In this document: positions 38,885-46,080 of the stretch, one piece after another
Layout of the letters: every line of letters begins with the position of its first letter
Position numbering within the stretch: position 1 is the first letter of the stretch
Source of the DNA: Dasania marina DSM 21967
Lineage (GTDB): Bacteria; Pseudomonadota; Gammaproteobacteria; Pseudomonadales; Dasaniaceae
Assembly (NCBI RefSeq): GCF_000373485.1
Contig: NZ_KB891585.1
Span: 371,727 to 435,726, forward strand
Length of the DNA stretch: 64,000 bases
Reading direction: 5' to 3'
Program-made: the position numbers and the translations under genes
The notes under the pieces: generated by a model
What the model was told of the DNA's origin: nothing
The model's database searches: none
Seen by the model: only the letters and a program-made list of their open reading frames with translations

Positions 38885-38938
38885 CTAGTTCTAGTTCTAG
38901 TTCTAGTTCTAGTTCTATTAATAGCTCTATTAATAGCT
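38885..38938. repeat. Hexanucleotide and 12-bp tandem repeats
   Basis: Five copies of CTAGTT (38885-38914) run directly into two copies of CTATTAATAGCT (38915-38938). The second unit is a near-palindrome. The array lies about 60 bp upstream of the DUF2970 start and could change promoter spacing through slippage. Confidence 0.9.
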
Positions 38939-39222: not shown

Positions 39223-39693
39223 TTAATCCCTCAGCGTATGCAGTATCTCCTGCATCTGCTTTTGGGTGGCCTTATCCAAGTGCCCCAGGCAGCGTTGTTC
39301 ATGTTGTGCTATCACTGTTTCAACCTGCAAGGCCAGCTTGTCACCTTGAGGGGTTAGCACCAAAGCATGGGCGCGGCCATCAACGGTACGCTCCACCAAA
39401 CCGCGCTGTTCCAGCTGAGCGACTATAGGCGTCATATTGGCCCGTTTAATCGCCAAGCAACGCCCTACCTCAATTAGCTTTACCTTAGGATTTGCCTTAA
39501 TCACCAGTAATACCGAGGCCTCCGCCGGGCTGAGTTCAACGCTGGATAAGGCTTCGTGTAAATCTTTCATGATAAGAATAGATGCACGACGCAGCTGGTA
39601 ACCCAGCAGATTTTCCAGCGGATCGACTAACTCCACACTTTTAGCACGTGAAGCCGCCTGTAATGTCGCCTGAGATATAGCCTCTGATGCCAT
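39223..39693 (-). CDS. MarR family regulator of the ferulate/coumarate genes
   Basis: 156 residues, dimeric winged-helix regulator: the HTH core spans VLLVIKANPKVKLIEVGRCL and IKRANMTPIVAQLEQRGLV, with the wing VDGRAHALVLT. It is divergent from the dehydrogenase-hydratase/lyase-synthetase genes and separated from them by three matching operators. This is the arrangement of FerC/FerR-type regulators that respond to hydroxycinnamoyl-CoA thioesters in Sphingobium and Pseudomonas. The ligand is inferred from that precedent. It probably also controls itself, since the first operator ends before its own start. Confidence 0.88.
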   Translation of the reverse strand: MASEAISQATLQAASRAKSVELVDPLENLLGYQLRRASILIMKDLHEALSSVELSPAEASVLLVIKANPKVKLIEVGRCLAIKRANMTPIVAQLEQRGLVERTVDGRAHALVLTPQGDKLALQVETVIAQHEQRCLGHLDKATQKQMQEILHTLRD

Positions 39694-39710: not shown

Positions 39711-39776
39711 TGTTATTGCAGATAACAATATAGAATGTTATAAAGTATAACAATCGCAGTGTTATGAATAATAACA
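39711..39776. promoter_or_regulatory. Three tandem MarR-type operators
   Basis: Three sites of identical form TGTTAT-N5-ATAACA occur at 39711-39727, 39736-39752 and 39760-39776. Half-sites are perfect in all three and only the 5-bp spacer varies. Centres are 25 and 24 bp apart. They fill the gap between marR and the GTG start of the dehydrogenase at 39797 and would cover both promoters. Confidence 0.9.
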
Positions 39777-39796
39777 GTAACCCCAAGGAGATCCCA

Positions 39797-41248
39797 GTGA
39801 CTACACAGACTATTTCCCTATCCATAGGCGGCGCTGAGCACGGCACTGCTAACAGTTTTGAACGTCTAAACCCGATCTCCGGAGCAGTGGCAACCCGCGC
39901 AGCAGCCGCTACGGTAGACGATGCCAAGGCCGCTGCCGATGCTGCCAGTCGTGCACTACCCGCTTGGTCTGCCTTGGGCCCTAACGCCCGCCGCGCCGCA
40001 CTCAACAAAGCCGCCGACGCCTTAGAAGCCAAGGCCGAAGACTTTGTTGCCGCCATGATGGCCGAGATAGGCGCCACTGAAGGCTGGGCTAGGTTTAACC
40101 TCATGCTGGCCGTTTCCATGGTGCGTGAAGCCGCTGCCTTAACCACCCAAATAGGCGGCGAAGTTATCCCTTCCGATAAGCCGGGCTGCATAGCCATGGC
40201 CAGCCGTGAAGCCGCCGGTGTGGTGTTGGGTATCGCCCCTTGGAACGCACCTATAATCTTGGGCGTACGCGCCATTGCGGTACCTTTAGCCTGTGGCAAC
40301 ACCGTCATACTGAAAGCCTCAGAGCTATGCCCACGCACCCATGCATTAATTATTGAAGCCTTTATAGAGGCCGGTTTGGGTGATGGCATTGTTAATATGA
40401 TTAGCAATGCCCCGAAAGATGCAGGCGACGTAGTCGGCGCGATGATAGATCACCCCGCCGTGCGCCGTATTAACTTTACCGGCTCAACCAACGTAGGCCG
40501 CATTATTGCCAAGCGCGCCGCTGAAAACTTAAAACCGGTGTTATTAGAATTGGGTGGCAAAGCCCCCATGCTAGTCCTGGATGATGCCGACCTAGACGAA
40601 GCAGTAAAAGCTGCCGCCTTTGGTGCCTTTATGAATCAGGGCCAAATTTGTATGTCCACCGAGCGCTTAATCGTTGTTGATAGCATTGCCGATGCCTTCG
40701 CCGAAAAATTCAAAGCCAAAGTCAACACCCTAGCCGTAGGTGACCCACGTGAGGGCAATACGCCACTGGGCGCGGTAGCCGATCAAAAAACCGTCAGCCA
40801 TGTACAAGCCTTAATCGCTGATGCTATAGCACAGGGTGCCACGCAACTGAATGGCGGTGATGCCAAAGGCGTGCTAATGCCTGCAACGGTTATCGACCAT
40901 GTTACCCCCAGCATGAAGCTGTTTCGCGATGAGAGCTTCGGCCCAGTCGTTGCGATTATTCGCGCCAATGATGAAGCCCATGCCATAGAGCTGGCTAACG
41001 ATACCGAGTACGGTTTATCGGCAGCGGTATTCACCCGCGATACAGCCAGAGGCTTGCGCGTAGCTAAACAAATTAAGTCTGGCATGTGCCACATTAACGG
41101 CCCCACAGTACACGACGAAGCACAAATGCCTTTTGGTGGTGTGAAGTCATCAGGCTACGGCCGCTTCGGTGGCAAAGCCGGCATAGAAGCCTTTACTGAA
41201 CTACGCTGGATTACTATGGAAACTGAGCCTGGGCATTACCCTATTTAA
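39797..41248 (+). CDS. vdh: Vanillin/4-hydroxybenzaldehyde dehydrogenase
   Basis: 483-residue NAD(P)-dependent aldehyde dehydrogenase expected to oxidise 4-hydroxybenzaldehyde, vanillin or protocatechualdehyde, the products of the next gene. Catalytic Cys285 is in MNQGQICMSTERLI; the general-base Glu is in LLELGGKAPMLVLDDADLDEA; the cofactor loop FTGSTNVGR and the NAPIILGVRAIA segment are those of the vanillin dehydrogenase branch. The start is GTG 39797 with AAGGAG 6 nt upstream; the ATG at 39764 lies inside the third operator and lacks a ribosome site. A repeat array begins at its stop codon. Confidence 0.9.
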   Translation: MTTQTISLSIGGAEHGTANSFERLNPISGAVATRAAAATVDDAKAAADAASRALPAWSALGPNARRAALNKAADALEAKAEDFVAAMMAEIGATEGWARFNLMLAVSMVREAAALTTQIGGEVIPSDKPGCIAMASREAAGVVLGIAPWNAPIILGVRAIAVPLACGNTVILKASELCPRTHALIIEAFIEAGLGDGIVNMISNAPKDAGDVVGAMIDHPAVRRINFTGSTNVGRIIAKRAAENLKPVLLELGGKAPMLVLDDADLDEAVKAAAFGAFMNQGQICMSTERLIVVDSIADAFAEKFKAKVNTLAVGDPREGNTPLGAVADQKTVSHVQALIADAIAQGATQLNGGDAKGVLMPATVIDHVTPSMKLFRDESFGPVVAIIRANDEAHAIELANDTEYGLSAAVFTRDTARGLRVAKQIKSGMCHINGPTVHDEAQMPFGGVKSSGYGRFGGKAGIEAFTELRWITMETEPGHYPI

Positions 41249-41380: not shown

Positions 41381-41420
41381 CGCGGTTGCAATTATTCAAC
41401 CGCGTAACTTTTTTATTTTT
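41381..41420 (+). terminator. Terminator between vdh and the hydratase-lyase gene
   Basis: CGCGGTTG and CAACCGCG form an 8-bp perfect stem with an 8-nt loop, followed by TAACTTTTTTATTTTTT. It lies inside the presumed operon, so it should reduce or separate expression of the downstream genes; the coding start of the next gene is 26 bp beyond. Confidence 0.85.
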
Positions 41421-41446: not shown

Positions 41447-42265
41447 ATGACTGACACAGTCACCTATAAAATTGAAAACCGTATCGCCTGGGTATCGTTC
41501 AACCGCCCAGAAAAACGCAACTGCATGAACCCAGCACTAAACCGCCGCATGACAGAAGTGTTAGACGAATTAGAGTTTAACGACGACGTAGGCGTTTTAG
41601 TGTTAACAGGCGAAGGCACAGCCTGGACTGCTGGCATGGATTTAAAAGAATATTTTCGTGAAACTCAAGCCAAAGGCCTGGGCGCCATACGCCAAGCACA
41701 ACGTGAATCTTACGGCTGGTGGCGCAAGCTGCGCTGGTTCCAAAAGCCTACTATCGCCATGGTTAATGGTTGGTGCTTTGGCGGCGGTTACGGCCCACTT
41801 TATTCTTGCGACTTGGCTATTGCTTCTGAAGATGCAAAATTTGGTTTAAGCGAAATCAATTGGGGTATTTTACCTGGCGGTGGCGCTACTAAAGTCGTTA
41901 CCGATCTTATGCCTATGCGCGACGCGATGTACCACGCCCTTACCGGTGAATCTATAGACGCGCGTAAAGCGGCCGACTGGAGCTTAATTAACGAAGCGGT
42001 ACCTGCAGATCAACTAAAAACACGCGTCACAGAAATAGCAAACGTGTTATTAGAAAAAAATCCGGTTGCCTTAAAAGCAACCAAAGATGCCGTGCGCAGA
42101 GTCAATGAAATGACCTACGACAATGCCGAAGATTACCTAGTGCGCGCCCAAGAAGCTGCCCACTACTATGATGCTGAAGGCAGCAAAGAAGGCATCAAGC
42201 AATTTATCGATGATAAAACCTACAAGCCAGGCCTAGGTGCCTACGCCTTAAAGCCGCAAAAGTAA
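41447..42265 (+). CDS. ech: Hydroxycinnamoyl-CoA hydratase-lyase
   Basis: 272-residue crotonase-fold enzyme that hydrates and cleaves feruloyl-, p-coumaroyl- or caffeoyl-CoA to the aromatic aldehyde plus acetyl-CoA. It matches Pseudomonas HCHL: oxyanion region AGMDLKEYFRE, GWCFGGGYGPL, catalytic Glu136 in LSEINWG, and Tyr230 in NAEDYL, both key residues of this branch, plus the C-terminal KPGLGAY. I chose ATG 41447, preceded by GAGAGG; an upstream ATG (41420) lies inside the terminator's T-rich tail. The synthetase gene follows 20 bp on. Called FerB in Sphingobium. Confidence 0.93.
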   Translation: MTDTVTYKIENRIAWVSFNRPEKRNCMNPALNRRMTEVLDELEFNDDVGVLVLTGEGTAWTAGMDLKEYFRETQAKGLGAIRQAQRESYGWWRKLRWFQKPTIAMVNGWCFGGGYGPLYSCDLAIASEDAKFGLSEINWGILPGGGATKVVTDLMPMRDAMYHALTGESIDARKAADWSLINEAVPADQLKTRVTEIANVLLEKNPVALKATKDAVRRVNEMTYDNAEDYLVRAQEAAHYYDAEGSKEGIKQFIDDKTYKPGLGAYALKPQK

Positions 42266-42285: not shown

Positions 42286-43842
42286 ATGATTAATAACAAG
42301 ACAACTACCCCAGCTGGGAATAAAGGCGCTGTTACCCACAGCGCCATAGACATGTTAGCGCTGCAAGCCCGAACGCAACCCGATCGGTTGGCGGCCATAG
42401 ATTTAAGCTATGGCCAGCAATGGAGCTACAGCGCCTTTGATAAAGCCGTTGCACAATGCGCCAGCGTATTGCTGCAACGTGGCATCAATGTGGGGGACAG
42501 AGTCGCGAGCCTGGCCAAAAACCGGGTGGAGTTAATCATGCTGCATCTGGCCTGCAGTAGAACGGGGAGCATTTATGTTCCCCTAAACTGGCGTCTGTCG
42601 CCTACCGAAATCGCAGGTTTAATTGAAGACGCTGAACCCAAACTATTATTTGGTGATGACTATTTAAAAACGATAGATTTAAACAGAATCAATCAACAAC
42701 AAACCGTTATTGAAAGCATCACTTTAGATCAGCTTGCGGAAGAAATATCGGCGGCGATACCTCTCCCCCCTGCCCCTATTAATGCAGAATTACCTTCGTT
42801 AATTTTATATACCTCTGGTACCTCAGGTAAGCCCAAAGGGGTTTTACTGTCAGAAAATAATATTACTGAAACTGCTATTAATTTTTCCTTGTTGGGCAAG
42901 GTTAACCACCACAGCGTGGTGTTATGTGATACACCCATGTTTCATGTTATAGGCCTAGTCACCAACATACGCCCATTTTTGATGCACGGCGGAAGCTTAA
43001 TCGTGTCCGATGGTTTTGTGCCAGCAACCACGCTAGCACGCTTAGCTGATCCGCAACTGGCTATTAGCCATTATTTTTGCGTGCCGCAAATGGCTGAAGC
43101 ACTGAGAGCAGAGCCTAGTTTTAACCCCGCACAATTGCGTGGTTTAACCGCCCTCTTCACCGGTGGCGCACCACACCCAGCCGCAAGCATCAATGCCTGG
43201 CTGAACGATGGTATTGCTATAGTCGACGGCTATGGCATGAGTGAAGTGGGTACCGTGTTTGGCATGCCCCTGGACCGTAAGCTTATCGCCGAACGAGCGG
43301 GTTCAGTGGGCATCGCCACAACTAGAGTGCAAACACGCATAGTTGATGTCAACGGTAACGATTGCGCCATAGGCACAGCCGGCGAATTGTTACTTAAAGG
43401 CACCAATGTCACCAAAGGCTATTGGCGTCGTGAACAAGAAACACAGGCTGCGTTTACCGCCGACGGCTGGTTACGCACCGGCGATATAGCCCGCTGTGAT
43501 GAGCAAGGCTATCACTGGTTAGTCGATAGACGTAAAGATATGTTTATCTCCGGTGGCGAAAATGTTTACCCGGCAGAAATTGAAGCTGTATTAGCGGGCC
43601 ACCCTCAGATTAAAGAGAGCGCCGTTGTTGCCAGAGCTGACCAGCGCTGGGGTGAAGTTGGCCATCTCTATTTAGTTGCCAAGCCAGGCAGCGAATTAGC
43701 AACCGACAGCATTATTGCTTACTTAGAACAAAAAATTGCCCGCTACAAAGTGCCGAAATATGTCAGCTTAATTGACGCCCTGCCCCGTAATGGTGCTGGC
43801 AAAGTATTAAAAAACACACTGCGTGATTTAATTGATAATTAA
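42286..43842 (+). CDS. fcs: Feruloyl/p-coumaroyl-CoA synthetase
   Basis: 518-residue adenylate-forming ligase activating hydroxycinnamic acids with ATP and CoA. Motifs in order: LILYTSGTSGKPKGVLLS (P-loop), VDGYGMSEVG (adenine binding), GWLRTGDIA, DRRKDMFISGGENVYPAEIE (hinge) and the C-terminal catalytic Lys in NGAGKVLKN. Pairing with the hydratase-lyase, rather than with beta-oxidation genes, is what makes hydroxycinnamate the likely substrate. It is the last gene of the unit and ends before the bidirectional terminator near 43962. Confidence 0.9.
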   Translation: MINNKTTTPAGNKGAVTHSAIDMLALQARTQPDRLAAIDLSYGQQWSYSAFDKAVAQCASVLLQRGINVGDRVASLAKNRVELIMLHLACSRTGSIYVPLNWRLSPTEIAGLIEDAEPKLLFGDDYLKTIDLNRINQQQTVIESITLDQLAEEISAAIPLPPAPINAELPSLILYTSGTSGKPKGVLLSENNITETAINFSLLGKVNHHSVVLCDTPMFHVIGLVTNIRPFLMHGGSLIVSDGFVPATTLARLADPQLAISHYFCVPQMAEALRAEPSFNPAQLRGLTALFTGGAPHPAASINAWLNDGIAIVDGYGMSEVGTVFGMPLDRKLIAERAGSVGIATTRVQTRIVDVNGNDCAIGTAGELLLKGTNVTKGYWRREQETQAAFTADGWLRTGDIARCDEQGYHWLVDRRKDMFISGGENVYPAEIEAVLAGHPQIKESAVVARADQRWGEVGHLYLVAKPGSELATDSIIAYLEQKIARYKVPKYVSLIDALPRNGAGKVLKNTLRDLIDN

Positions 43843-46033: not shown

Positions 46034-46080
46034 TGCATTACGCCGTGTTGTTGTTAGAGGGCCACGGAGGCTTTTAAAAA

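Follow-up and report, generated by a model that had tools for sequence, protein, structure and literature searches.

The window that we analysed, a 64-kb stretch of the Dasania marina genome, carries a marR gene divergent from a set of genes that probably degrades plant hydroxycinnamates. On the minus strand, marR (39223-39693) codes for a CouR/FerC-like repressor of 156 residues, with a MarR-family winged helix that scored above the cut-offs of the Pfam families MarR_2 and MarR (PF12802 and PF01047). Its nearest solved relative is PDB entry 6c28, which we take to be CouR of Rhodopseudomonas palustris (E 1.1e-16; the runner-up has 3.1e-7). On the plus strand follow an aldehyde, probably vanillin, dehydrogenase with a GTG start (39797-41248; Pfam Aldedh, N-terminus aligned with those of relatives), a p-hydroxycinnamoyl-CoA hydratase/lyase (41447-42265; NF006588, 460.6 bits against a cut-off of 276) and an acyl-CoA synthetase that is probably a feruloyl/p-coumaroyl-CoA ligase (42286-43842; NF006572 above its cut-off, AMP-binding, with the role taken from context). 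The names "vanillin dehydrogenase" and "feruloyl-CoA ligase" are both assigned by gene context. Genes for an MFS transporter of the aromatic-acid type and for a LigAB-type dioxygenase lie farther along. Between the dehydrogenase and lyase genes, a terminator-like hairpin followed by a T run (41381-41404) may set the dehydrogenase/lyase ratio or imply a separate lyase promoter; however, it may be due to chance, as a scan of 10 kb gave 15 such sites where shuffles gave 12.2. Short tandem repeats, 5.5 copies of CTAGTT and then a 12-bp unit, are found downstream of marR (38885-38938).

The hydroxycinnamate cluster looks accessory in D. marina. Among 10 genomes from the genus and family, only that of D. 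marina has an NF006588 lyase above the family cut-off; in the class, three of 369 genomes have one, D. marina included. The sole other genome of the genus gave no MarR match, and across the genus and family such matches were weak or absent (best E 3.1e-6), which made a footprint among close relatives impossible. A scan of the genome contigs with the MarR protein alone returned no relative.

The initial annotation had described three perfect copies of TGTTAT-N5-ATAACA within 66 bp, and exact matching bore this out. Matches to TGTTATNNNNNATAACA, to which no strand is assigned, occur at 39711-39727 (S1, TGTTATTGCAGATAACA), 39736-39752 (S2, TGTTATAAAGTATAACA) and 39760-39776 (S3, TGTTATGAATAATAACA), with no fourth in the 64-kb window. 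All three lie inside the 103-bp gap between the marR start (39693, minus strand) and the dehydrogenase GTG (39797); S1 is proximal to marR and similar to the upstream member of the site pairs in relatives, and S3 is an additional unit, placed in the predicted 5' leader. The centres are 25 bp (S1-S2) and 24 bp (S2-S3) apart; with 10.5 bp to the helical turn, these distances amount to 2.38 and 2.29 turns and are indeed not integral, as had been noted. In the whole genome (4.1 Mb in 18 contigs) we found five exact sites, three of which are S1-S3. A high frequency of the 17-mer genome-wide had been named beforehand as the result that would speak against an operator; the exact word is instead rare. 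The two remaining exact sites lie within ORFs, one of 721 residues and helicase-like, the other of 128 residues, and were dropped as repressor targets because they are intragenic. The reversed pattern had no exact match in the genome, and the degenerate word TGYTATN5ATARCA gained no further site there. With up to one mismatch, the genome has 19 sites (14 beyond the exact five), as compared with 8 for the reversed pattern. With up to three mismatches, the window has 52, a number reached by one of 100 shuffles, which averaged 34.1 (sd 6.3). No site with three or fewer mismatches was detected at 46034-46080, upstream of the MFS transporter gene, which is therefore probably outside MarR control.

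As also annotated initially, the ATG that would give the longest dehydrogenase frame lies within the third site (ATG 39764); it is in frame, and reading from it would add 11 residues. A ribosome-binding site, AAGGAG (39785-39790, plus strand), precedes GTG 39797. In an alignment, four annotated relatives (L054, L058, L055 and L059) start at or after the residue equivalent to this GTG, and the ATG of a fifth dehydrogenase (L099), whose sequence we had trimmed one codon before that ATG, aligns with the same residue. The ribosome-binding site and the aligned N-termini support the earlier assignment of GTG 39797 as the true start.

We compared 85 loci with a similar MarR, comprising five plasmid loci (of seven plasmid matches) and 80 genome loci, the best 80 of 199. 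Because the 80 were retrieved with a recognition-helix pattern, a shared operator is expected among them, but this does not favour a given spacing. Plasmid loci L056 and L057 were left out of the footprint, and the upstream stretch of L057 has no such site. By our own count, 67 of the 85 have a dehydrogenase or lyase match on the opposite strand, about 400 bp or less from the MarR match. Scored with the window's word alone, not with a weight matrix, 13 of the 85 loci have an exact site in the 420 bp or so that precede the MarR match, 53 have one with up to one mismatch and 73 with up to two; the corresponding counts in 2047 control tiles (440 bp each, from the rest of the same loci) are 8, 8 and 14. 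Among the 12 loci without a site of up to two mismatches, five (L055, L098, L100, L120 and L136) carry an exact copy elsewhere in the locus, ahead of dehydrogenase or lyase genes, three (L078, L103 and L104) have a 3-mismatch site only, and four (L074, L101, L112 and L125) have no good site. Nine exact sites lie away from marR: four before a dehydrogenase gene, two before a lyase gene, one each before a TonB-receptor gene and a TRAP-transporter-like ORF, and the ninth between flavoprotein-hydroxylase-like and regulator-like ORFs, the last two names being read from translations. The sites in the relatives have the consensus TG[TC]TATG-N3-CATA[AG]CA. Being kept before similar MarR genes, S1-S3 are very probably the operators of the adjacent CouR/FerC-like repressor, in support of what had been proposed.

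For two class genomes with a lyase locus, we saw no such site in the stretches scanned around the MarR-like gene (L051) and no MarR-like gene in the ORF list (L052). Exact pairs of sites with a linker of 0-30 bp were found in D. marina only among 369 class and 398 phylum genomes (overlapping sets), and once among 397 genomes of another family, in 41 bases identical to L115; such a search misses degenerate second sites. Five loci (L062, L067, L079, L080 and L087) have, upstream of marR, operator pairs that overlap with an offset of 5 bp, a half turn, instead of 24-26 bp; they count as one-site loci in the analysis of decayed upstream operators below. Two gammaproteobacterial MAGs carry beside the hydroxycinnamate genes a 293-residue ORF that resembles two MarR proteins fused in tandem (L098:5983-6864 and L107:6493-7374). 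In L098 the likeness rests on two Pfam MarR stretches and in L107, where a separate MarR of 153 residues lies next door, on similarity of the translation. An exact TGTTATTTAGCATAACA precedes the lyase gene in both, and the ORF is possibly a single-chain dimer. A more distant MarR homologue, in L019, has the recognition helix RSAM in place of RANM, and a palindrome, TGTTTATGCTATAAACA, lies between the MarR match and the start of a divergent enoyl-CoA-hydratase-like ORF (L019:1446-1462). Together, the two hint at a helix-to-operator code.

A promoter geometry is embedded in the predicted operators of the relatives. The counts of pairs, single sites and third sites given below rest in part on a weight matrix that was built from the same loci; near-identical loci were merged for the non-redundant pair and one-site counts. 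Read in the catabolic direction, the pairs follow the pattern TGYTAT-TGnnn-ATARCA, linker, TGnTAT. Of the 36 pairs, 32 have a TTG at positions 6-8 of their upstream site (20 of the 24 non-redundant ones); in the downstream site, 0 of 24 have it there. If TTGnnn is assumed to be the -35 and TATnnn (positions 4-9) the -10, the promoter spacer equals the site distance minus 8, and operator distances of 24, 25 and 26 bp correspond to spacers of 16, 17 and 18 bp. The implied spacer in the 24 non-redundant pairs is then 15 bp in one, 16 in 7, 17 in 14 and 18 in two, hence 16-18 bp in 23. Among 28 non-redundant one-site loci, 18 have the TTG at a spacer of precisely 17 bp from the -10; none of the other spacers between 8 and 33 bp is represented by more than 3 of the 28. 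Moreover, where the upstream operator has decayed (27 one-site loci), its left half retains T4 in 8 loci and A5 in 6, while T6, T7 and G8 are kept in 17, 17 and 20; some of its right end also remains (C16 in 16, A17 in 15). The TTG thus outlasts the left half of the upstream operator, and it is therefore the hexamer, more than the operator, that fixes the distance.

In the window, the predicted -35 of the catabolic promoter, TTGCAG (39716-39721, plus strand), lies inside S1, with its TTG at the place conserved in relatives. The predicted extended -10, TGtTATAAA (39736-39744, plus strand; hexamer at 39739-39744), lies inside S2, 17 bp after the -35 and also at a conserved place. By rule of thumb, the transcript is expected to start near 39751. 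TTGCAG matches the consensus at three of six positions, and a plain sigma-70 promoter scan listed no promoter at TTGCAG-17-TGtTATAAA, because the -35 is weak and the scan demands a T at the last -10 position. As neighbouring registers score as well or nearly as well in the window alone (ATTGCA-18, TGCAGA-16 and ATAACA-18-TATAAC), the choice of the TTGCAG-17 register rests on the relatives.

We consider it likely that the operators of this divergent CouR/FerC-like MarR carry the two halves of the catabolic promoter in S1 and S2, that S3 is an extra site and that the inducer is a hydroxycinnamoyl-CoA. In the mechanism that we infer, MarR dimers would occupy S1 and S2 when the inducer is absent and mask the -35 and the extended -10; with both covered, RNA polymerase would be excluded from the dehydrogenase-lyase-ligase promoter. 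The 25 bp between S1 and S2 would represent a 17-bp spacer plus the fixed places of the hexamers within the operators. Because each operator carries one promoter hexamer, the operator distance would follow the promoter spacer. In the predicted transcript, S3 falls at about +9 to +25, where a dimer sitting on it would stop RNA polymerase early in elongation and make repression tighter; S3 possibly acts on marR too. Hydroxycinnamoyl-CoA, the product of the ligase, would then release the repressor. It counts against this mechanism that S3 corresponds to no position conserved in the relatives and that its distance of 24 bp from S2 does not follow from the promoter geometry.

S3 may instead serve marR as a marR-side element, with overlapping divergent promoters and an extended -10 toward marR in S2 or S3. 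Both sites do contain such -10-like sequences on the minus strand, TGtTATACT in S2 and TGtTATTAT in S3, each with five of six consensus positions and a TG in front, and a role of S3 for marR is therefore possible; a CTGGGA is also present 18 bp upstream of the S3 hexamer. However, no TTG-like -35 lies 16-18 bp before the S2 hexamer, and a TTG toward marR is found at 16, 17 and 18 bp in just 1, 0 and 2 of the 28 one-site relatives. Also, the sequence ATCAA (TTGAT toward marR, maybe a marR -35), which by our own count occurs in the linker of 21 of 36 pairs of the relatives, is absent from the window. We regard this reading as possible but improbable.

Alternatively, S3 (or S2) could have arisen recently by tandem duplication of a unit of 24-25 bp and be functionless by itself. 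A search for triples of sites scoring at least 7, which covered the stretch upstream of marR, found none in the 85 relatives, and the best candidate for a third site downstream of the main one scored -0.1. In comparison with L054, S1 lies 34 bp and the L054 site 30 bp from the ATG on the marR side, and S3 lies 20 bp and the L054 site 19 bp from the start on the dehydrogenase side, as if one unit had been inserted between the marR-side and the dehydrogenase-side sites. Yet S3 is a perfect palindrome and the highest scoring of the three (27.1, against 24.2 for S2 and 20.5 for S1), and drift would soon erode a site without function. Duplication without function is a tentative explanation, and on the whole a doubtful one.

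The initial annotation had ascribed the regular spacing to contacts between MarR dimers, which would bind cooperatively on rotated faces of the DNA and cover both divergent promoters. The pairs in the relatives do hold 23-26 bp, and S2 and S3 are 24 bp apart despite the lack of a good promoter between them in the plus direction. This last distance, which is outside the promoter geometry, is the sole observation that still favours dimer packing, or else plain duplication of a unit. Against contacts, 35 of the 68 loci that have both a divergent gene and a site show a partner at 23-26 bp and 33 show none; furthermore, distances of 24-26 bp coincide with promoter spacers of 16-18 bp, and the TTG persists at 17 bp even in loci with a decayed operator. 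Cooperative binding as the cause of the spacing is therefore unsupported, and we think it unlikely. More speculatively, three abutting dimers at about 0, 137 and 240 degrees would form a helical array in which one inducer switches a sharply cooperative, all-or-none blockade of both promoters; the operators would serve as promoter as well, and added units of 24-25 bp would tune the steepness. To this extended scheme we give little credence. The probability that the sites are functionless AT-rich palindromes arisen by chance, as the AT-rich gap might suggest, is practically negligible, since 73 of the 85 relatives have such a site but only 14 of the 2047 control tiles do.

The arrangement that we favour, with promoter halves carried by S1 and S2, is of an ordinary and well conserved kind, in which the operators of a divergent MarR repressor overlie the promoter; its unusual detail is the third site. 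It provides a predicted operator word, TG[TC]TAT-N5-ATA[AG]CA, that would hold for hydroxycinnamate repressors of a wide group, as well as a rule by which operator distance tracks the promoter spacer, with one promoter hexamer per operator. Both would be useful for biosensor design and regulon annotation. The rule also cautions that operator spacing need not carry a helical-phase meaning, and the triple site offers a natural test of the effect of an added operator. We found neither a triple operator of this kind nor the spacing rule described in the literature searched, a result to which little weight attaches since the primary papers on FerC and R. palustris CouR lay outside the search.

Among known systems, R. 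palustris CouR (6c28) is the closest solved relative of the window MarR by sequence. The likeness is one of protein sequence, not of the operator, and the recognition helices read ILRPNF in CouR and IKRANM in the window MarR. As in CouR/FerC-type repressors, marR adjoins genes for a CoA ligase and a hydratase/lyase (the AMP-binding synthetase and the NF006588 lyase, with the aldehyde dehydrogenase), and the predicted operator is an inverted repeat overlapping the promoter. Excerpts of the literature describe CouR and FerC as MarR repressors released by hydroxycinnamoyl-CoA (PMC4737184, PMC10458429, PMC5487221); related excerpts on MarR repressors are found in PMC9594313 and PMC6888825. R. palustris CouR is described there as released by p-coumaroyl-CoA (PMC10458429, PMC5487221), and FerC of Sphingobium sp. 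SYK-6 as the repressor of a ferulate operon whose DNA binding is inhibited by feruloyl-CoA and other hydroxycinnamoyl-CoAs (excerpt of PMC5487221). We liken FerC itself by description; other Sphingobium loci that we compared have the gene order and operator of the window. HcaR of Acinetobacter, a weaker match to the window MarR (E 6.9e-6, against 1.1e-16 for CouR), represses a hydroxycinnamate pathway of the same ligase and hydratase/lyase type, according to passages in PMC10458429 and PMC5487221. The best NCBIfam model for the window MarR is NF053777, the family of Saro_0803 of Novosphingobium aromaticivorans, but the score falls short of the curated cut-off (71.6 against 200 bits). The part of PMC10046596 on Saro_0803 describes a MarR-like regulator with the repeat GCAATA------TATTGC and resveratrol as ligand. 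Finally, CouR of R. jostii RHA1 (5cyv) has, in the sections of PMC4737184 on this protein, an inverted repeat with a 5-bp spacer that overlaps the -35 box and occurs once between two divergent promoters, and Arg36 and Arg38, which bind both DNA and CoA and are masked by the CoA. These arginines are not conserved in the window MarR, which has Ser55 and Ala57 in their place in a profile alignment. R. jostii CouR and the window share a 6-N5-6 inverted repeat over a -35, a predicted one in the window, but the R. jostii box is cATTGA-N5-TCAATg, with one per promoter region described, whereas the window has TGTTAT-N5-ATAACA three times.
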